Positions 3-8,981 of a stretch of 64,000 nt of DNA are shown in pieces. Both the position numbers and the translations under genes were made by a program. A model generated the notes under the pieces. That model was given only the letters and a program-made list of their open reading frames with translations, did not search any database and had not been told where the DNA came from. Position 1 is the first letter of the stretch, and each line of letters begins with the position of its first letter. The DNA is from a virus, in the IMG/VR virus record IMGVR_UViG_3300032805_000001, positions 1 to 64,000 of that record; one strand, written 5' to 3'.

Positions 3-1286
3 CGGGATTATCTGTGGCGGGAGATCGCCAAGTGGGCGAACTGTCTCGACTTCGGTAAGATCGGCCGGCCGCCGTTCAATCCTCGTGGCGAGCTTATGAA
101 GACTGGGCTGAGTCTCCGCCATGGTCTCGCTCTGGCTTCGTCACCTGACACTCCCGCCAAGATCGAGGGTGTTCACGGGGATTCGGTGCTGGCGGTCCTC
201 GACGAGGCGAAGATTATCTCCCCGGAGACTTTCGACAGTATCGAGGGTGCGTTCTCCGGTTCCGGGGAAGGGTCTGACCTGGAGGCTTACGCTCTGTGTA
301 TTTCGACTCCGGGTGAGCCGTCGGGGCGTTTCTATGACATTCACAAGCGGGTGCCGGGACTGGAGGACTGGCATATCCGGCATGTCACCCTTGATGAGGC
401 GGTAGCCGCTGGGCGGATGACCCGGACGTGGGTTGAGCAGCGGAAGAAGTTGTGGGGCGAGACTTCCGCCCTGTTCCAGAATCATGTTCTGGGTGAGTTC
501 TGCGCCGACGACGAGGATGCCATCATTCCCCTTTCCTGGGTTGAGGCTGCGGTGACCCGGTGGCGGGAATGGGACGCGGACGGCCGTCCTGACCCGCAGG
601 GGCCCCGCGTCGCCGGTGTCGACGTGGCTACCACAGGCAAGGACCACACCGCCGTCGCCACGCGCTACGGTGACGTGATCATCGGTATCAGGACGTGGGC
701 CAGGGCTGACACGATGGAGACCGCCGGCCGTGTCAGGCAGGTTCTTGACGCAGATCCGGAGATCACCGCGATCGTTGACTCCAGGGGGGTCGGTTCCGGG
801 ACTTACCATCGGCTCCGGGAGATGGGATGCCGGGTTGACCCGTTCGATTCGAGCGCGAAGGCTACCCGGCGGGATCGTACGGGCCAGTTGTCGTTCAAGA
901 ATCTCCGGGCCGCGGCCTGGTGGCATTGCCGGGATCTGCTGGACCCTTCCGCTGGTGCCGCCCTGGCGCTTCCGCCGGATGACGAGCTGATCGGTGACCT
1001 GACGTGTGTGCATAAGAAGATCCTCAGCGACGGGAAGATCCTGGCTGAGCTGAAAGACGACGTGCGGAAGCGGATCGGGCGTTCCACGGACAAAGGTGAC
1101 GCTGTAGTGATGGCCCTGTGGGCGGCGCAGGGGTCATGGATGGACGCTTACCGCACTACGGGGAACTGTGAGCATTGCGGGCTCTGGTTCCGGCCTGACC
1201 TGCCGGACGGGTCGGCGCGGACGCATTGCCCCCGCTGCCGTAAGCGTCTGGAAGTCCCGGGAGACGGCGAAGATGAGGCTGCCTGA
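3..1286 (+). CDS. terL: Terminase large subunit (5' truncated by window edge)
   Basis: The DNA-packaging motor: ATPase plus nuclease that cuts the genome and pumps it into the prohead. The frame is open from base 3, so the first ATG at 96 is internal and the N-terminal ATPase half lies outside the window. Visible are a Walker B-like stretch (VLAVLDEAK, bases 186-212) and the RNase H-fold nuclease with three spaced acidic residues: GVDVAT (Asp codon at 621), AIVDSRG (Asp codon at 777) and KGDAVVMAL (Asp codon at 1098). After the nuclease comes an extra zinc-ribbon-like tail with two CxxC pairs (bases 1167-1238), which is not part of the basic terminase fold. Gene order (terminase, then portal) supports the call. 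Family identity is certain; the role of the Cys tail is unknown. Confidence 0.95.
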   Translation, partial: RDYLWREIAKWANCLDFGKIGRPPFNPRGELMKTGLSLRHGLALASSPDTPAKIEGVHGDSVLAVLDEAKIISPETFDSIEGAFSGSGEGSDLEAYALCISTPGEPSGRFYDIHKRVPGLEDWHIRHVTLDEAVAAGRMTRTWVEQRKKLWGETSALFQNHVLGEFCADDEDAIIPLSWVEAAVTRWREWDADGRPDPQGPRVAGVDVATTGKDHTAVATRYGDVIIGIRTWARADTMETAGRVRQVLDADPEITAIVDSRGVGSGTYHRLREMGCRVDPFDSSAKATRRDRTGQLSFKNLRAAAWWHCRDLLDPSAGAALALPPDDELIGDLTCVHKKILSDGKILAELKDDVRKRIGRSTDKGDAVVMALWAAQGSWMDAYRTTGNCEHCGLWFRPDLPDGSARTHCPRCRKRLEVPGDGEDEAA

Positions 1287-1314: not shown

Positions 1315-1980
1315 ATGGCGGGTATGGCTGCCATGTACGGGAAGATGATGAGATGGGAACTGCCGCACCTCATCGCGCAGGTCAGGTCGGTATGTGAGAT
1401 CACCGCGGACGGCTGCTGGCTGTGGCGTTACGGAGCGTGGAAAGACCGGCACCTCATCGGCGAGCGCCCGTACCCGCGGATCATGATCGCTGGCGAGCGT
1501 CATTTCGTCGCGCACTGGGTTCTTGTCGCGAGCGGCCAGCCCCGCCGCGCCGGGATGGAACCATGCCATAGCTGCGACAGGCCACCCTGCTGCTGTCCCG
1601 CTCACCTGCACTGGGGTACCCATCAGGTGAACATGGCGGAGATGGGTACCCGGCGGCGCGCGGGTGCTCAGCGGCACCCGGAGCGGATGCAGCGCGGCGA
1701 TGACCACTGGATGCGGCGCACCCCGGAGCGGAAGGTGTACGGCCCGCGCCCCGGGAACTACGCGCACGGCGACAATCACTGGACCCGCCGGGAACCGGAG
1801 TCGATATCGTGGGCCGGCACCGCCCATCACATGGCGAGGCTTGACGAGGGCAAGGTCCGGATGATCCGGTCCGACGCGGCAGCCGGGAGGAAGCCGGGTG
1901 CCATCGCGGCGGCGCTTGGCGTCGGTGAGACCACCGTCCGGGCTGTCCTGAACGGCCGCACCTGGAAGCATGTGACCTGA
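1315..1980 (+). CDS. HNH homing-type endonuclease with C-terminal HTH
   Basis: 221-residue protein with a Trp-rich lead-in (GCWLWRYG, residues 33-40), an HNH-like core (AHW at 66-68, CHSC at 84-87, a further Cys cluster, PAHLHWGT at 95-102) and two copies of an 11-residue motif (GDDHWMRRTPE at 128-138, GDNHWTRREPE at 152-162) like the DNA-contacting repeats of homing endonucleases. The last 40 residues (178-218) read as a helix-turn-helix of resolvase/transposase type. Such genes sit between structural genes in many actinophages and spread by cutting alleles that lack them. HNH nucleases beside the terminase also assist packaging in some phages, so that role is possible. Start could be 1315 or 1324; no clear Shine-Dalgarno precedes either. 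Confidence 0.75.
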   Translation: MAGMAAMYGKMMRWELPHLIAQVRSVCEITADGCWLWRYGAWKDRHLIGERPYPRIMIAGERHFVAHWVLVASGQPRRAGMEPCHSCDRPPCCCPAHLHWGTHQVNMAEMGTRRRAGAQRHPERMQRGDDHWMRRTPERKVYGPRPGNYAHGDNHWTRREPESISWAGTAHHMARLDEGKVRMIRSDAAAGRKPGAIAAALGVGETTVRAVLNGRTWKHVT

Positions 1981-2026: not shown

Positions 2027-2914
2027 ATGCCGGTCAACATCAGCAATCCGGGGCTTCTGAAGATCGCCCGCCGGATAATGAGCGAGCCGTGGTTCAGTTA
2101 CGATCCCCGGGACATGGAACGCGCGTTCCGCCAGTGGACTGAGGTTACGACACCTGAGCAGCGGGAGATCGCTCAGAGGGTGTTCTTCTATCGGTTGCTG
2201 GAAGACCTGCGTGCGGAAAAGTGGCGCCCCGCTGAGGTCGCCGCGCCCGGACGGCCCAGGATTGTGCCCGGCCGCGTGACGGAAGACAGCACCCCGCCGG
2301 GGCGGGATACTGCGACCCCGCCGCCTGTTGCGGCGCTGAAGTTCAGGAGCCAGTCTTCTGACTGGCCCAAGGAGGAGGAGCCGCCACCCCTGGCCGCGCC
2401 GGCCGCGCCGCAGCAGGCACCTGCGGCGTCTCTGGCACCGGCAGCCGCTGCCAGCACGGGCAGCACGGGCAGCACGGAGTGGCCGGCGGTGAAACGTACG
2501 ATCCCGCCGTCACCTCCCGCCCCCGTGGCCCAGCCGTCCCGTAAGATCGCCGGATATCAGCAGATGTACCCCGAACTTTCCCGGTCGTGGGAAGCCGCTT
2601 CGGGTGAGAGGAAAACGCTCGCGGACTTCGACGAGCGTGACATCCGGTACCGGGACAGGCAGCTCAGCGGGCAGCAGCAGTTGTGGCGGACCGAGAACGC
2701 GGGTGACGAGGAGCGTATCGAGGGCCGTGAGCGCCGCAACGCTCAGGATCGGGTGCGGATCGCGCAGCGGGCGCAGGGTATCCGTGATCTGGAAGCGGAA
2801 AGGGAACGGCTGGCAGCCGCCGGGCAGGAAATGGCTGAGCATGGCTGTGCCACGATCGGTGAGCTTCCCCCTGAGGCTCTCACCGCGTGCGGTTTCCGCA
2901 GGCATGTAGCATGA
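2027..2914 (+). CDS. Hypothetical protein with helical ends and Pro/Ala linker
   Basis: 295 residues, not recognised. Residues 1-70 look helical, residues 75-165 are a low-complexity Pro/Ala/Ser/Thr linker, and residues 170-290 are strongly charged and coiled-coil-like (many Glu/Arg). The gene lies between the HNH endonuclease and the IS110-like gene and overlaps the latter by ATGA (2911-2914), so the two are probably translationally coupled. There is no catalytic motif. By position it could be a packaging accessory or a partner of the IS110-like protein; neither can be shown from sequence. Confidence 0.6.
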   Translation: MPVNISNPGLLKIARRIMSEPWFSYDPRDMERAFRQWTEVTTPEQREIAQRVFFYRLLEDLRAEKWRPAEVAAPGRPRIVPGRVTEDSTPPGRDTATPPPVAALKFRSQSSDWPKEEEPPPLAAPAAPQQAPAASLAPAAAASTGSTGSTEWPAVKRTIPPSPPAPVAQPSRKIAGYQQMYPELSRSWEAASGERKTLADFDERDIRYRDRQLSGQQQLWRTENAGDEERIEGRERRNAQDRVRIAQRAQGIRDLEAERERLAAAGQEMAEHGCATIGELPPEALTACGFRRHVA

Positions 2915-4053
2915 CCGCCGGAGACCCCCTCAGTGACCAAACCGGAAGCGTTGCCCAGTCACCAGTCGTCACTGAGGGTCAGGACTCCCCGCAGGCCACA
3001 GCAGGCGCGGCACCCACTCGCCCGGCGCCTGCGGGGGACAAGACCAGCCGCAGCCAAAGGACATCCGGCACCCAGGCGCCCAACGCTGCGGCTGATGACT
3101 CCTCCGGCGGCCACAAGCATGCCGGCGCCCAGGGATGCCGCGCCGCCGGAGGGCAAGCACCCCCACCCGCCACATCCTCTTCGGTGCTGTCGGCGTGGCC
3201 GGAAGAACTCGGCCGTGACCTCGCCGCCGCCGCCGACACCCTCTGGGACATCGAACGCCTCCGCATCGCGAGCGAGAACCGGCTCCGCCAGTTCACACGC
3301 GGCATCGGCGAAGCCGACAAAGACGGGCGGAAACGGGGATTCGGGTGGGATCTCCGCTCACCAGCCGTGGCCACGCTCGCCGCGATCACCGGGCACATGC
3401 TGTGCGACTCCACCGTCGTCAGGGAAACACTCGGCGACGAGAAACCAGCCAGGCATAAAGGCTGCTGTCTTGAACACGACGCTGAACGGAACCTGACCCG
3501 GGCGCTCCGCGCGCACCCGCTCGGCCCATGGGTACGGGAACGCAAAGGCGCTGGGGAGAAACAAGGCGGCCGGCTCATCGCCGTGATCGGTGACCCGTAC
3601 ATGCGGCCCCCGATCCTCCTCGAGGATGGTTCCTGGGACCCGGCGAGACCGCGTACCGTCGCGGAACTATGGGCCTACTGCGGTCTCAAACCAGGGCAGA
3701 AACGTAAGCGGGGAGAGAAAGCCAACTGGTCCGCCGCCGCCAAAATGCGCGCATGGAATATCGCCGGGTCCATGCTGAAAGCCGGCAACCGTGAACTGTA
3801 CGACAAGCGCAAGGCTGCCACCGAAGGCCGCGCCCACAGCGGGGAATGCGTGCGCTGCGGCCCGTCCGGCAAGCCCGCGCAGCCGGGGACGCCGTGGAGT
3901 GACGGGCACCGGCACGCTGACGCGCTGCGGATAGTGTCCAAGGAAGTCCTGAAAGACTTGTGGCGTGAAGCCCGGCGCATCCACGAGGAAACTCCCGTCA
4001 GTGGCCACGGAGCCGGCGTCTCCCAAAGACGGTGCGCCGCTGACGGGCACTAG
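2911..4053 (+). CDS. IS110 Transposase_20/Nop-like RNA-binding protein (Tas-like), no nuclease domain
   Basis: 380 residues. Residues 1-90 are disordered (Pro/Ala/Ser), 92-200 helical. From about 203 the protein follows the C-terminal domain of IS110-family transposases: a helix-hairpin-helix-like GPW..GAGEKQGGRL ending in IGDP (225-228), then RPRTVAELWAYCGLKPG (246-262), KMRAWNIAGSMLKAGNRELYDKRKA (278-302, quoted as a position range with key residues W282, N283, G292 and Y297), a CxxC (313-316) and DGHRHADALRIVSKEVLKDL (331-350). The DEDD/RuvC-like catalytic domain of real IS110 transposases is absent and no transposon ends are seen, so this is not an insertion sequence. Known family logic: IS110, box C/D Nop and phage Tas proteins share an RNA-binding fold. 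The hairpin array begins inside this gene, and residues 361-380 plus the stop codon are encoded by unit 1. Start 2911 is chosen by ATGA coupling. Domain call fairly sure; Tas assignment is inference. Confidence 0.7.
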   Translation: MTAGDPLSDQTGSVAQSPVVTEGQDSPQATAGAAPTRPAPAGDKTSRSQRTSGTQAPNAAADDSSGGHKHAGAQGCRAAGGQAPPPATSSSVLSAWPEELGRDLAAAADTLWDIERLRIASENRLRQFTRGIGEADKDGRKRGFGWDLRSPAVATLAAITGHMLCDSTVVRETLGDEKPARHKGCCLEHDAERNLTRALRAHPLGPWVRERKGAGEKQGGRLIAVIGDPYMRPPILLEDGSWDPARPRTVAELWAYCGLKPGQKRKRGEKANWSAAAKMRAWNIAGSMLKAGNRELYDKRKAATEGRAHSGECVRCGPSGKPAQPGTPWSDGHRHADALRIVSKEVLKDLWREARRIHEETPVSGHGAGVSQRRCAADGH

Positions 4054-4248
4054 AAGGAATCCCCGTCAGCGGCCAAAGCGTAACCGTCGCCCATGCTCAG
4101 TGCGCCGCTGACGGGGGCTAGAAGAAACTCCCGTCAGCGGCCATGACGCAGGCGCCTCCCACCCAGCGACCGCCGCTGACGGGGACTAGCCGATCCAGCC
4201 CGGCCATCATCGGGGCGTTACTCCAAAGGAAACGCGCCGGGCTGGATC
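3985..4248 (+). repeat. Tandem hairpin array with variable loops (TIGR-like guide RNA array)
   Basis: Three units have an exact 68-nt period. Left arms CCCGTCAGYGGC at 3994-4005, 4062-4073 and 4130-4141 pair with right arms GCCGCTGACGGG at 4036-4047, 4104-4115 and 4172-4183. All pairs form; unit 1 has one G-U pair. Each loop is exactly 30 nt (4006-4035, 4074-4103, 4142-4171). Loops start with CA and share a centre near SCGYCKCCCA (loop positions 11-20), while the about 8-10 nt on each side differ. Linkers of 14 nt carry CTAGAAGRAA; the first CTAG holds the stop codon of the upstream gene. A fourth unit has different 13-bp arms, GATCCAGCCCGGC (4192-4204) and GCCGGGCTGGATC (4236-4248), around a 31-nt loop with a related centre. 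Changed arms that still pair are covariation, which favours a functional RNA. Two variable segments around a conserved loop centre match the outline of dual-spacer tigRNAs. Confidence 0.8.
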
Positions 4249-4285
4249 ACCTTGCGCCCCTCGACGAGCTGGGAAGCGAGGCGGC

Positions 4286-4732
4286 GTGACCCATCCCGGC
4301 GTCCCCACCTCGCCCGGCGTTCCCGTGTTCGAGCACGCCGCCCAGGAGGCTATCCGCCAGGCCCGGTCGCGTGTGGAGGCCTTCACCCGCCCCCGGCCGA
4401 TCCTCACCCCCGAGGAACGCGAGGATGCTCTCAAACGCGCTGAGGAGGGTGAGACCTGCCGGTTCTGCGCGGGGTTTCACCCTGGCGCGTCCACTCCCGC
4501 GTGCCCCCGGCTGGCGACGTTCGAGCTCAACGGCGACGGCCAGGTGGTCAAGGGGTCGTTCTGGCCTGAGGGGATCACGGACGCGGCGGTGGAATTGGAC
4601 GGGGAGGGGGCGGTGCGGGCGGTGACATTCCACCGGAACGACCAGTGGGACACGAGCCAGATCGTGCGGGCCGCCGATGCCGCGGAGGAAGAGGACGGCG
4701 GCTCCGCGGAGGTTTCCGTGGGGCATCCTTGA
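4286..4732 (+). CDS. Small hypothetical protein with Cys cluster
   Basis: 148 residues. An N-terminal helix is followed by a CRFCAGFHPG...ACPRL segment (about residues 58-76) able to bind a metal, then a short beta-rich region (FELNGDGQVVKGSFWPEG) and an acidic tail. Small genes of this form commonly precede portal genes in actinophages; no function is known. It ends four bases before the next start, so the two are probably co-translated. Confidence 0.65.
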   Translation: MTHPGVPTSPGVPVFEHAAQEAIRQARSRVEAFTRPRPILTPEEREDALKRAEEGETCRFCAGFHPGASTPACPRLATFELNGDGQVVKGSFWPEGITDAAVELDGEGAVRAVTFHRNDQWDTSQIVRAADAAEEEDGGSAEVSVGHP

Positions 4733-4735
4733 CCG

Positions 4736-4924
4736 GTGAGCATCGAGGATGGCATCAGGATCGGTGACCCCATCAGGGTCACGATAACCGGGTACGCCGG
4801 TGACGGGTTCAGCGGGACATCAGGCTCGGAAAATGCAGCAGAGAAGTTCATCAGGCTGGACTACGGCCGCGAGAGCGCGTACATCGCCTGCGAGCAGCCT
4901 GGTGTGACAATCACGAAGGTCTGA
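4736..4924 (+). CDS. Small hypothetical beta-rich protein
   Basis: 62 residues from a GTG start placed 3 nt after the previous stop. The sequence alternates charged and hydrophobic residues like a small beta-barrel (IRVTITGYAG, FIRLDYGRES, PGVTITKV). No recognised family. Its position just before the portal suggests a co-transcribed accessory protein. Confidence 0.55.
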   Translation: MSIEDGIRIGDPIRVTITGYAGDGFSGTSGSENAAEKFIRLDYGRESAYIACEQPGVTITKV

Positions 4925-4949: not shown

Positions 4950-7900
4950 ATCGCGAGCCCAGCCGCCATCCTCCGCGCATCGAAAGCGGCCCCTGGCGGC
5001 GCGCGGCCGACGCCTGCCCCGCAGGGTCCGGGTATCGGGCAGATCAGCCCGCTCGCTGCCCAGCTAGCGAACGAGTCTGGTTACGCGAACGCCTACGGCC
5101 CGTTCCTGCCGCGTCCGGCCCGGACGTTCACTGAGGGTGCGTTCGGCCCGTTCAGCCCGATCCTCCCGGTCCCGGTTGATTCGCCGCCGCCGGGTGGTGA
5201 TCTGCCGGATCCGCGGCTGTGGCAGGGTCCGGTCGGCTGGAACCTGCCGACTCAGCCTGGCAGTGAGGGCATCAAGCTGGCGTCGTTCGCCACTTTGAAG
5301 ACTCTCGCTGACACCTACAGTGTGGCCAGGACGTGCATTGAGCGCCGCAAGTATGAGATCGCCGGCCTGGACTGGGACATTGTGCCCACACGTGAGGCCA
5401 GTAAGGCGTATCAGGGTGATCACGATGCGATGCGGGATTTTGGTGAGCGCCGCGCGCAAGCCGTGAAGTTTTTCCGGCAGCCTGACCCGGACTTTTTCTC
5501 CTTCTCCGGGTTCCTGAAGGCCGCGCTTGAGGACGTGTTCGTGTTCGACGCGCTGTCGGTCCTGATGAAGCCGAAGCGGGGCCGGGGTTTGCGGCGGGGG
5601 CTGCTCGGGTCGGATCTGGACTGCCTGAACCTGATCGACGGGCAGACGTGCCGTCCGCTGATCGGTTTGCATGGGGAGGTGCCGCGGCCGCCGGCGCCGT
5701 ACATTCAGCAGTACCTGTTCGGGGTGCCCCGGTCGGATTTCCCGGCGATGATGACGGGCCGTGACATTGAGGAAGCGGGCCTGAAGGGTGCTGAGGCGGG
5801 GTCGTTTTCCGTTGATCAGATGCTGTACCTGCCGATTGTGCCGCGCCGTCAGACACCGTACGGGTTCAGTGCGACGGAACAGGCGCTGATCGTCATCATG
5901 ACGGGTCTGCGGAAGCAGGCGTATCAGCTTGAGTACTACTCCGAGGGCACCGTCCCGGCTGTTTACATCAGTCCCGGGGATGTAAACATCACCCCGAATC
6001 AGGTCCGGGAACTGCAGGATGCGCTGAACGCTTACGCGAATGATCAGGCGTGGCATCACAAGGTGATCGTCCTGCCGCCAGGCTCCCGGGTGGATCCGCA
6101 AAGGCCTCAGGACCTCGCGGACCAGTTCGACGAGATCATCATGACCGAGGTCGCGATGGTCTACGACGTCGACCCGATGAGCCTGGGTATCATCCCGAAG
6201 GTTTCGACGGTCGCGTCGCCGTTCGCGGCCCGGGAGATGGCGCAAGCGTCCCGCACGGTTCATGACCGGACGTCGACGAAACCGCTGCTGAAATTCCTGT
6301 GCGATATTTTCAACACGATCCTGCACCGTGTCTGCGGCCAGGACGACATGAAGTTCACGTTCGCCGGGATGGACGAGGCGCAGGACCAGGCGGCGCAGAC
6401 GGATCTGCTGGTCAAGCAGGTCCAGAACGGTATCCGGTCTGTTGATGAGGCCCGTGAGGAACTGGAGCTGACCCCGTGGGGGCTGCCGGAAACTTCCGGG
6501 CCGGTGGTGTTCACCCAGATGGGTGTGGCGCCGTTCGAGTGGATGCCGGGGGCGGCGATCGAGGAGGCTTCCAGCGGCGGCGCCTACTCCGGTGACGATG
6601 AAACCCCGCAGGATGAGGGGGCCGCGCAAGCGTCGGGGACGGCGACACAGCCGAGGGGTGTGCATCACCCGCCGAGCTCACGTCCGGTCGGCACCCACAA
6701 CCCGCGTCTCGGGCTGCCGTCGGGGGGGACGAGGCTGCACGCGGAAACCCCGCCGGAACGGGCGGGGCGGATGGGCCGCACCCCGGCGCATTCAGCGGCG
6801 GTGGGTGCGCACGGGACGACCCGGCAGGGGAAAGCTGTCAAGGCGGAACTGGAAGCCCTGGCCCGGCATCTGCGGAAAGGCCGGGACATCGGCACGTGGC
6901 GGGCGGAACACATTCCCGGTACGGTCCTCGCTGTCGTCGCGGAGGATCTCACCAAGGGGCTGACCGCTGATGAGGCGGTCGCGTCCGCGATGACGGTGGT
7001 GCTCCCAAAAGCGGCGTACGAGTGGGCGGAGAAGGCTAACCCGCCGCAGCAGGGCAGCAGCCAGCAGCAGCAGTCCGCTCAGCAGGCCCAGCAGCTTGCC
7101 CGCACGTACGCGCAGCGGATCCGGGCCGCGTTCACCGCGGTTGCGAAGGCGGCGCTGCGGCTGATCCGCATGTGGCTGACGGGTGCGCTCGCGGTGACCG
7201 CGCTCGCTTTGGCGGGGATGATCGCGGAACTGATCCGCAAGCATCTCACCCCGGTCCTGGCTGCGTTGTGGCGGGAAGCGTGGCATCTGGGCGCGGCGAC
7301 CGCTGAGGCGGTGATCCGCGACGAGGAACCAGACTGGAAAGGCTGGGAGCCTGGCAGTACCGCCGCGGCGGGCAAGCCGGCGGCGATGGACGCCTGGGTC
7401 GCCTCCCATGGCCGGGACGTGATCGAGGGCATCACCACCACCCGCATCCCGGACCTGGCGGACGCGCTCACCAGGGCCGCAGCGGCGGGGGAGAGCGCGG
7501 AGACGATCGCCGCCACCATCGCGGTCGTGCTCGGGTTCGATCAGCGCGCCGACCTGATCGCGGTGACGGAAACGGAGCGGGGCAAGAACGGCGGCATGAC
7601 CGACACGTACCGGCTCGCCGGGGTCATGCAGAAGCAATGGGTCACCATGCACGACGGCAAGGTGTGCGGCACCTGCCGGGCGAATGAGGCGCAGGGCTGG
7701 ATCGTCTTTGACGCGCCGTTCCAGAGCGGCAACCTTGCCCCCCCTAACCATCCGCGCTGCAGGTGCCATCTGTCCGCCCGGCTGGCCCCGGCCGCCGCGA
7801 AGAAGTACGCCCGCGCTGTCGGTGTGAACGGGCAGGAGTATTGGCCGGCTGACAGCTACGCCCGTGGCACCGCGCCGGGCTCGGGCGGTCCCATGCCCAC

Positions 7901-8981
7901 CATCCACGACGCCGACGGCATCCAGATCGGCATCGCCGGTGGTGTGCCGGGGGCGACGGCTGGCGGGGAACCGCCACGCTGGGACGGGGACGAGGCCCCG
8001 CACATCGTGACCGCCACCCCCCGCAGTGACGCGGAGGGGCGCGGGAACGTCCAGACGTACGGTGGCGGCAGCACCGGCGCCCCATACCGGGACCGCAGCG
8101 GCGAAACCCACGTGGGTGAGCCGCTCGATGCCGACGACGCGGACTGGCCGGAACATCGCGGTATACCGCCGAGGCCGGGACGGGACTGGCCCGCCCCGTA
8201 CATGGACGGCTACTGGCCGGCGGGGGGTCACGGGACCGGGCAGGCACCCGGCAGCCCGGTCGTGGGCGGGGAACGGGGCAGGCCGCCGAACGCGGTCGGG
8301 AAGAACGCCGCCGACCTGTCCGACCCGAACCCGGTCGAGTGGCCTCACGTGCAGGCCCTCATGGAGAAAAACTTCCCCGAGGACGTCCTTACCTGGGTGA
8401 AGGACGCGCACTGGATCGGCCCGGTTGAGGTGCCTCAGGACCGGATCGACACCTCCGATGAAGACTCGTGGGCGGCTTCGCATGAGCCGGAGGCGGTGCG
8501 CCGGTTCGCGCGGGACATCAAACGCGGCACCGGGCACACGCATCCGGTGATCCTTGTCCAGTCCCCGGAGGACAGCAAGGCCGTTGTGATCGACGGGCAT
8601 CACCGGACTCTCGCCTACCGGAAGCTGGGCCGGCCGGTGAAGGCGTACGTCGGGATGGTTGACAAGATCACCCCGGCGATGCTGGAAACGCACACGCGCC
8701 AGATTCATCAGGGTGCCGATCCGGCGAACAAGGCGGCCCGTGGCCGTACCGCTGCGGAAGTGCTCCGCGAGTACTGGACCCATGAAGGGCATCCCGGGCC
8801 GACACGGTACGCGCTCGAGCAGAAAATCCGCTGGGGCCAGCCGGATGACTGGTACCGGTGCGTGGATGAGCTGACGCCCTACGTCGGCGGTGAGGGTGCC
8901 AAGGGGTACTGTAATTTGCGCCACAAAGAGGTACTGGGTTACTACCCGGCGCAACATGCCGAGATGGAACGCGGTAAGTAG
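4950..8981 (+). CDS. Portal protein fused to MuF-like head morphogenesis domain and ParB/Srx-like domain; non-standard start
   Basis: The portal forms the dodecameric DNA entry ring; MuF-like domains belong to minor head proteins. The frame carries portal-like sequence upstream of its first ordinary start (TTG at 5295), including YGPFLPRPARTF and FGPFSPILPVPVD, and is closed by TGA at 4941. No ATG/GTG/TTG lies between, so the likely start is ATC at 4950 (reading M-A-S-P-A-A-I-L) behind AGGGCGGTGATC, a near match to the extended Shine-Dalgarno. About 1343 residues: portal core about 1-540, a low-complexity linker, membrane-like helices near 730-760, a MuF domain about 875-947 with CGTC and PPNHPRCRC, and a ParB/sulfiredoxin-like domain about 1195-1237 (VIDGHHRTLAYRKLG). 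Each domain call is solid; how the fusion works (cleavage, or a head-internal C-terminus) is unknown. Confidence 0.88.
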   Translation: MASPAAILRASKAAPGGARPTPAPQGPGIGQISPLAAQLANESGYANAYGPFLPRPARTFTEGAFGPFSPILPVPVDSPPPGGDLPDPRLWQGPVGWNLPTQPGSEGIKLASFATLKTLADTYSVARTCIERRKYEIAGLDWDIVPTREASKAYQGDHDAMRDFGERRAQAVKFFRQPDPDFFSFSGFLKAALEDVFVFDALSVLMKPKRGRGLRRGLLGSDLDCLNLIDGQTCRPLIGLHGEVPRPPAPYIQQYLFGVPRSDFPAMMTGRDIEEAGLKGAEAGSFSVDQMLYLPIVPRRQTPYGFSATEQALIVIMTGLRKQAYQLEYYSEGTVPAVYISPGDVNITPNQVRELQDALNAYANDQAWHHKVIVLPPGSRVDPQRPQDLADQFDEIIMTEVAMVYDVDPMSLGIIPKVSTVASPFAAREMAQASRTVHDRTSTKPLLKFLCDIFNTILHRVCGQDDMKFTFAGMDEAQDQAAQTDLLVKQVQNGIRSVDEAREELELTPWGLPETSGPVVFTQMGVAPFEWMPGAAIEEASSGGAYSGDDETPQDEGAAQASGTATQPRGVHHPPSSRPVGTHNPRLGLPSGGTRLHAETPPERAGRMGRTPAHSAAVGAHGTTRQGKAVKAELEALARHLRKGRDIGTWRAEHIPGTVLAVVAEDLTKGLTADEAVASAMTVVLPKAAYEWAEKANPPQQGSSQQQQSAQQAQQLARTYAQRIRAAFTAVAKAALRLIRMWLTGALAVTALALAGMIAELIRKHLTPVLAALWREAWHLGAATAEAVIRDEEPDWKGWEPGSTAAAGKPAAMDAWVASHGRDVIEGITTTRIPDLADALTRAAAAGESAETIAATIAVVLGFDQRADLIAVTETERGKNGGMTDTYRLAGVMQKQWVTMHDGKVCGTCRANEAQGWIVFDAPFQSGNLAPPNHPRCRCHLSARLAPAAAKKYARAVGVNGQEYWPADSYARGTAPGSGGPMPTIHDADGIQIGIAGGVPGATAGGEPPRWDGDEAPHIVTATPRSDAEGRGNVQTYGGGSTGAPYRDRSGETHVGEPLDADDADWPEHRGIPPRPGRDWPAPYMDGYWPAGGHGTGQAPGSPVVGGERGRPPNAVGKNAADLSDPNPVEWPHVQALMEKNFPEDVLTWVKDAHWIGPVEVPQDRIDTSDEDSWAASHEPEAVRRFARDIKRGTGHTHPVILVQSPEDSKAVVIDGHHRTLAYRKLGRPVKAYVGMVDKITPAMLETHTRQIHQGADPANKAARGRTAAEVLREYWTHEGHPGPTRYALEQKIRWGQPDDWYRCVDELTPYVGGEGAKGYCNLRHKEVLGYYPAQHAEMERGK

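Follow-up and report, generated by a model that had tools for sequence, protein, structure and literature searches.

A phage-borne TIGR-TasA system with predicted guide units inside the tasA coding sequence

Can the gene of an RNA-guided protein also carry the guides of that protein? The question is raised by a locus in the virus record IMGVR_UViG_3300032805_000001, from a phage of soil bacteria. We analysed the first 64 kb of this 120-kb record (positions 1 to 64,000, hereafter the window), in which a gene for a 380-aa protein, tasA, is accompanied by a series of hairpins. A sequence-only reading of this DNA had proposed a nuclease-less TIGR protein followed by an array of four hairpin units. 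We found eight units, several of which lie within the open reading frame (ORF) of tasA. Comparison with homologous loci revealed that such embedded units are locked to the reading frame and that a second gene nearly always precedes tasA. The sequence-only reading included neither the four units in the 5′ portion of the ORF nor the frame-locking or the partner gene.

TasA and its guide units

The window protein matched the curated equivalog model NF052498 (TIGR_Tas_endo) of NCBIfam with 194.8 bits over residues 105-355 (cut-off 100, E = 1.7e-57), and a phmmer search of the PDB retrieved TasR (9mty, 6e-8) and TasH (21kl, 3e-6). Its AlphaFold model displays an ordered core (residues 97-360 approximately, pLDDT >90), with residues 1-96 and 361-380 disordered. 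Using this model as a Foldseek query, the ten best matches were all TasR or TasH, with IS621 eleventh (E = 0.035), and the archaeal Nop5 structure 3id5 gave a weak match in fold comparison only (E = 3.2). The Nop fold common to Tas and IS110 proteins, on which the sequence-only reading had staked its proposal, is thus present in the predicted structure. No nuclease domain was detected in the protein, Pfam giving no matches and residues 1-96 being disordered, and it is therefore a TasA. The N-terminal DEDD/RuvC-like nuclease domain of IS110 was likewise absent according to Pfam, AlphaFold and NCBIfam. The IS110 Transposase_20 domain that had been claimed from sequence alone had to be withdrawn, Pfam giving no such match. 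PADLOC returned nothing for TasA, and only weak, unconvincing matches for its partner.

All eight units of the window are on the + strand and read CCA-N9-CG-N4/5-CCA-N9-CG within palindromic arms. Each opens with an arm and box C (CCA), continues with two 9-nt spacers, A and B, separated by a loop repeat (CG-N4/5-CCA), and closes with box D (CG) and the second arm. For a strict pattern (CCA, 9 nt, YG, 3-8 nt, CCA, 9 nt, YG, flanked by at least 8 arm pairs), a Markov control predicted 0.025 units per 64 kb, and 0 when at least 9 arm pairs were required; no further unit was found with this pattern in the remaining 56 kb of the window. Hairpin folding supported all eight units (z from -2.5 to -4.5). 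Four are situated in the 5′ part of the tasA ORF (CCA boxes at 2937, 2996, 3054 and 3111), one crosses its end and three lie beyond it. The three units of 68-nt period (3985-4189) and the fourth with other arms (about 4192-4248) that had been noticed initially do exist, but they are four of a total of eight; the arms of the fourth are indeed different and able to pair, but it is an ordinary unit of a family in which arms vary throughout. The 30-nt loop with a conserved centre corresponds to the succession of CCA, 9-nt spacer, CG-N4/5-CCA, 9-nt spacer and CG.

This is the build of a TIGR unit. As described in the TIGR founding paper (Faure et al. 2025, PMC12045711), such a unit comprises an edge, spacer A, a loop and spacer B, each spacer being preceded by box C (CCA) and followed by box D (UG). 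Owing to the symmetry of the Tas dimer, edge and loop carry the same boxes. In the stem-loop type, the edges are replaced by palindromes. The window units likewise have two short spacers (in the range of 8-12 nt) each, boxes C and D that agree between edge and loop, and variable palindromes in place of edge repeats. Their arms vary from unit to unit and no constant repeat of 25-36 nt is present, unlike in a CRISPR-type array, and there are eight separate one-hairpin units, as opposed to the single bridge RNA of IS110. Together with the NF052498 match and the TasR/TasH fold, this anatomy bears out the nuclease-less, TasA-like proposal, and membership of the window system in TIGR-TasA, a kind already known, is secure.

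We extended the analysis to 76 homologous loci from phage records, IMG/VR and three bacterial genomes (71 distinct loci without duplicates). The 76 loci contain 407 units near tasA on the sense strand, compared with 11 on the sense strand farther off, in an equal amount of DNA, and 4 on the antisense strand. The strict pattern found 376 units near tasA in 66 of the 71 distinct loci, with spacers of 9 nt in 96-99% of them. The arrays of loci L076 and L085 were missed by the CCA pattern; that of L085 has four units, and that of L076 (3440-5290) is a twelve-unit stem-loop array in which edge and loop share the boxes GCACA and CTCGC, with spacers of about 10 nt. Altogether, a hairpin array accompanies TasA in 68 of the 71 distinct loci, so that the search for array-less relatives, suggested earlier as a test, came out in favour of the proposal.

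When arms were not required, 335 of 412 motifs near tasA still paired at 8 or more of 10 arm positions, and antisense motifs were unpaired. Across the family, the arms vary between units and covary, with all four Watson-Crick types found at each of the 10 positions. Spacers A and B have one common positional composition profile (p about 0.016 when only units outside the ORF are counted); the likeness is stronger inside the ORF, where it is confounded by coding. In orthologous units of Fromanvirus, a group of close Mycobacterium phages, arms are 93-100% identical and spacers 35-45% identical. Such constancy of the arms beside changing spacers is the signature of a fixed scaffold whose guides can be exchanged. 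Related mycobacteriophages (L040-L050 and L008, in the unit near 3860) combine one and the same spacer A (TATCTCCGG) with different spacers B, and the two halves may therefore be exchanged independently. Other spacer pairs in the same phages are a few substitutions apart, as if tracking a varying target.

Guide units in the tasA coding sequence

In dozens of loci, units are located within the tasA coding sequence, in an N-terminal extension, in one internal loop (flanked by the WAYCG and K/R-G-NW motifs) or in a C-terminal tail. The distribution of the N-terminal units over codon phases 0, 1 and 2 is 9/69/92, and that of the internal units 0/2/34. In contrast, units outside the ORF show no such bias (36/24/27 upstream and 7/8/8 downstream). 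The bias persists after correction for stop codons, using the stop-free rate of each phase measured on units outside the ORF (p about 1e-12, calculated as if all loci were independent, although some are related). Being frame-locked inside the ORF and not outside it, the units are therefore dual coding. Furthermore, the 36 internal units interrupt the conserved domain of TasA, and must therefore be translated. The favoured phase appears to be the one with the fewest unconstrained codons, so that spacers could change there with the least risk of creating a stop.

The tree of these loci is a deep one, with many changes to and from the embedded state. No clustering of this state was detected; supported branches require at least 5 changes and parsimony 16, and embedding is therefore not the quirk of one clade. 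One locus (L074, 3512-4987) carries nine units with an exact period of 45 nt (15 codons), neighbours sharing one palindromic edge, all in the tasA ORF, and six more units are present in the same ORF; this array looks intermediate between the dual-repeat and stem-loop types. A period of 42 nt was observed in L027. Units also occur in other coding sequences: two within the partner gene of phage Rich, in its N-terminal region (L006, 3118-3210), and others in gene 57, upstream, in phage BENtherdunthat (L011, 2528-2679).

Partner gene and genomic setting

The stop codon of the gene preceding tasA overlaps the tasA start by 4 nt (ATGA) at position 2911. A profile of this partner precedes tasA in 69 of the 71 loci (hmmsearch), and the window copy was recognised by a profile built without it (E = 3.6e-6; hhalign probability 92.7). 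The mycobacteriophage partner was found in 76 phage records, essentially those with a TasA homologue. The protein is mostly helical, and its predicted fold had no match in the PDB. It probably acts together with the TasA ribonucleoprotein (RNP). As far as could be checked, guides within a coding sequence and a near-universal partner are new features of this variant; neither is mentioned in the main text of the founding paper (PMC12045711).

The genes of the window follow each other in the order large terminase, HNH endonuclease, partner, tasA, hairpins up to about 4250, and portal (Table 1). The placement between terminase and portal, which the sequence-only reading had thought unusual, is real and is peculiar to this phage among the homologous loci. 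In its relatives, the cassette of partner and tasA is located in DNA-metabolism or immunity regions, frequently adjoining repressor, excisionase and integrase genes. The portal gene of the window encodes a 1228-aa fusion of portal and Mu-F domains, the C-terminal part of which contains a DGHHRTLA stretch that appears ParB/sulfiredoxin-like by eye; Pfam gave no match for that part. A promoter scan and an Rfam search found nothing.

Table 1. Positions of the tasA cassette, its guide units and neighbouring genes in the window.
Feature	Position	Strand	Spacer A / spacer B	Evidence
Large terminase gene	96-1286			PHROG 2
HNH endonuclease gene, directly 3′ of large terminase gene	1315-1980			PHROG 1872
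Partner gene, 295 aa, divergent member of PHROG 4604 (unknown function)	2027-2914	+		hmmsearch, hhalign
tasA, 380 aa, nuclease-less Tas protein	2911-4053	+		NCBIfam, phmmer, Foldseek, AlphaFold
tigRNA unit 1, in tasA coding sequence	2927-2978	+	AACCGGAAG / GTCACCAGT	pattern, Markov control, folding
tigRNA unit 2, in tasA coding sequence	2986-3037	+	CAGCAGGCG / CTCGCCCGG	pattern, Markov control, folding
tigRNA unit 3, in tasA coding sequence	3044-3095	+	AAGGACATC / GGCGCCCAA	pattern, Markov control, folding
tigRNA unit 4, in tasA coding sequence	3100-3153	+	CAAGCATGC / GGGATGCCG	pattern, Markov control, folding
tigRNA unit 5, codes for TasA C-terminal tail	3993-4048	+	CGGAGCCGG / AAGACGGTG	period, pattern, folding
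tigRNA unit 6, 3′ of tasA	4059-4118	+	AAGCGTAAC / TGCTCAGTG	period, pattern, folding
tigRNA unit 7, 3′ of tasA	4128-4185	+	TGACGCAGG / CCCAGCGAC	period, pattern, folding
tigRNA unit 8, 3′ of tasA, other arms, loop repeat longer by 1 base	4192-4248	+	TCATCGGGG / AAGGAAACG	pattern, folding
Portal gene	5295-8981			Pfam-based annotation

Proposed mechanism, alternatives and known systems

Our preferred explanation, to which we assign a probability of about 0.83, is that the phage carries a TIGR-TasA system with a stem-loop array, in which the operon transcript is both mRNA and guide precursor and the RNP binds DNA. According to the founding paper, a Tas dimer holds one guide, opens an 18-bp site with one spacer on each strand and bends the DNA by about 180 degrees, and TasA stem-loop arrays are processed at their linkers (PMC12045711). 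From these precedents we infer the processing and function of the array as follows. A single operon transcript would be translated into the partner and TasA and would also give rise to the guides. A dimer of TasA would bind boxes C and D of one unit, and a host RNase would cut the linkers between units. The resulting RNP would bind 18 bp of DNA, one strand of which would pair with spacer A and the opposite strand with spacer B. Because TasA lacks a nuclease, the RNP would act as a block or a bend, by occupying and bending the DNA, and the most likely outcome would be the silencing or destabilising of a competing element. Excising an embedded guide would destroy the tasA message, and the supplies of guide and protein should therefore limit each other. 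We also lean, with less assurance, towards the more specific view that in these actinophages the effector mRNA is itself the guide precursor, with phase-preferring units at its start, loop and end, each transcript yielding either effector or guides, and that the unnamed second protein (PHROG 4604) is obligate.

Several observations weigh against this explanation. Three of the 71 distinct loci (L078, L079 and L083) have the protein and no evident array. The role against a competing element is proposed by analogy, and the expression and processing of the units, above all of the embedded ones, are predictions. Finally, no DNA target was found for the guides in any search run. Scanning 0.93 Mb of phage DNA in eight orientations with gaps of 0-12 revealed no enriched geometry, and two host genomes (Actinomadura and Nocardia) gave nothing convincing. 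With 32 guides as queries, 301 Nocardia-family genomes yielded three exact matches, about the number expected by chance. BLAST of six guides against phage records gave no match (in the positive control, a 78-nt query could recover an 18-mer at E = 8), and gapped patterns of three guides had 0, 2 and 2 matches in IMG/VR. This agrees with the experience of the TIGR authors.

The same system could serve another purpose, its guides acting on regulatory sites of the phage itself or of its host, in replication, partition or integration. The TIGR authors suggest help to an integrase and mention other TasA operons in which the partner is ParB-like (PMC12045711), and the frequent proximity of repressor, excisionase and integrase genes to the cassette points the same way. 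However, no self-target was found when 32 guides were compared with the four complete genomes of their own phages, the best matches having 3-5 mismatches of 18, equal to those of mixed-pair controls. Moreover, the rapid turnover of spacers is more readily reconciled with foreign targets that change than with own sites that stay fixed. We therefore hold this alternative to be possible, but clearly the less likely purpose. A lone self-match of 17/18 lies inside unit 2 of the window (at about 3017-3034), where it covers spacer B and the adjoining arm; it arises because spacer A of this unit resembles the unit's own arm.

It is improbable that this is a stem-loop TIGR-TasA locus of the ordinary kind, its N-terminal units forming a non-coding 5′ array, with tasA starting downstream and the frame kept open only through GC-richness. 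The frame is open by chance across a single unit 59-70% of the time, Fromanvirus mycobacteriophages do have a non-coding array with a strong AAGGAGG start just 3′ of it, and the window offers a GTG at 3184, 3′ of its N-terminal units. Nevertheless, this GTG has no Shine-Dalgarno sequence, and neither have most alternative starts 3′ of the array, in contrast to the non-embedded Fromanvirus genes. In about 25 loci, including the window, the tasA start is an ATGA-type overlap with the upstream gene and lies 5′ of the units. In 39 of 60 loci the tasA frame is open across the entire upstream array, compared with 13 and 6 for the other frames. A non-coding array would explain neither the phase bias of the N-terminal units nor the units that split the conserved domain.

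We consider it very improbable that the units are not guides at all, but palindromic binding sites or selfish in-frame palindromes that have spread near and within tasA. In Rickettsia, palindromes are inserted in frame in genes (Rickettsia palindromic elements), which provides a precedent for selfish palindromes, and the failure to find targets for the spacers would favour this explanation. However, the units are restricted to the sense strand in the neighbourhood of tasA, their arms change by compensatory substitutions, spacer length is fixed at 9, boxes agree between edge and loop, and orthologous units retain their arms while replacing their spacers. Their build is also that of sequenced tigRNAs (PMC12045711). 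A decayed IS110-family transposase, deprived of its nuclease and of any RNA-guided role, is hardly credible: PHROG 4285, which also recognises TasA, is labelled 'transposase' and IS621 is the next fold match after the Tas proteins, but the IS110 model of NCBIfam does not match the window protein and scores far below cut-off in the one homologue that it matches, and the TasA core is conserved across 71 loci together with array and partner.

If the TIGR-TasA explanation is correct, an effector gene that holds its own guide array within its coding sequence would represent a new means of packing, and perhaps of self-regulating, an RNA-guided system. The phase rule shows how protein and RNA constraints are reconciled, and the conserved partner gene is a new component. 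The natural role of TasA, the targets of its guides and the growth of arrays are listed as open in PMC12045711. About 75 sequenced phages of Mycobacterium smegmatis, a host used in the laboratory, carry the system; close relatives among them have orthologous arrays with different spacers, and these questions can therefore be addressed with phages already isolated.

The closest known systems are other TIGR loci. With the TIGR-TasA stem-loop arrays of a Peromyscus gut contig, as presented by Faure et al. 2025 (PMC12045711), the window system shares a nuclease-less Nop-domain protein, two short spacers between boxes C and D, variable palindromes replacing edge repeats and, in some arrays, a constant loop sequence. 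The sub-arrays of that contig are intergenic, whereas here many units are in the tasA coding sequence and a PHROG 4604 gene lies 5′ of tasA. TasA-TasParB operons, as described in the same paper, also associate tasA with an operon partner; in our case the partner is apparently unrelated, mostly helical and without a fold match in the PDB, and the arrays are of the stem-loop and not the dual-repeat type. The TIGR-TasH system of Salicola phage CGphi29 has a homologous Nop domain, paired spacers and a CCA-type box C, but TasH possesses an HNH nuclease and its dual-repeat array, with a period of 36 nt, is located wholly 3′ of the gene (L014, array 4475-4876, coding sequence 3518-4447). IS110/IS621 transposases with their bridge RNA share a distant Nop-like fold; as opposed to these elements, the window system has no DEDD nuclease and no transposon ends, and many small dual-spacer units in place of one bridge RNA. 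Finally, a transcript that is both effector mRNA and guide precursor, as predicted here, is known from TnpB and its omega RNA (PMC10278001). TnpB obtains one RNA from the end of its transcript, whereas the tasA message would provide several guides, from the start, the middle and the end of the coding sequence.
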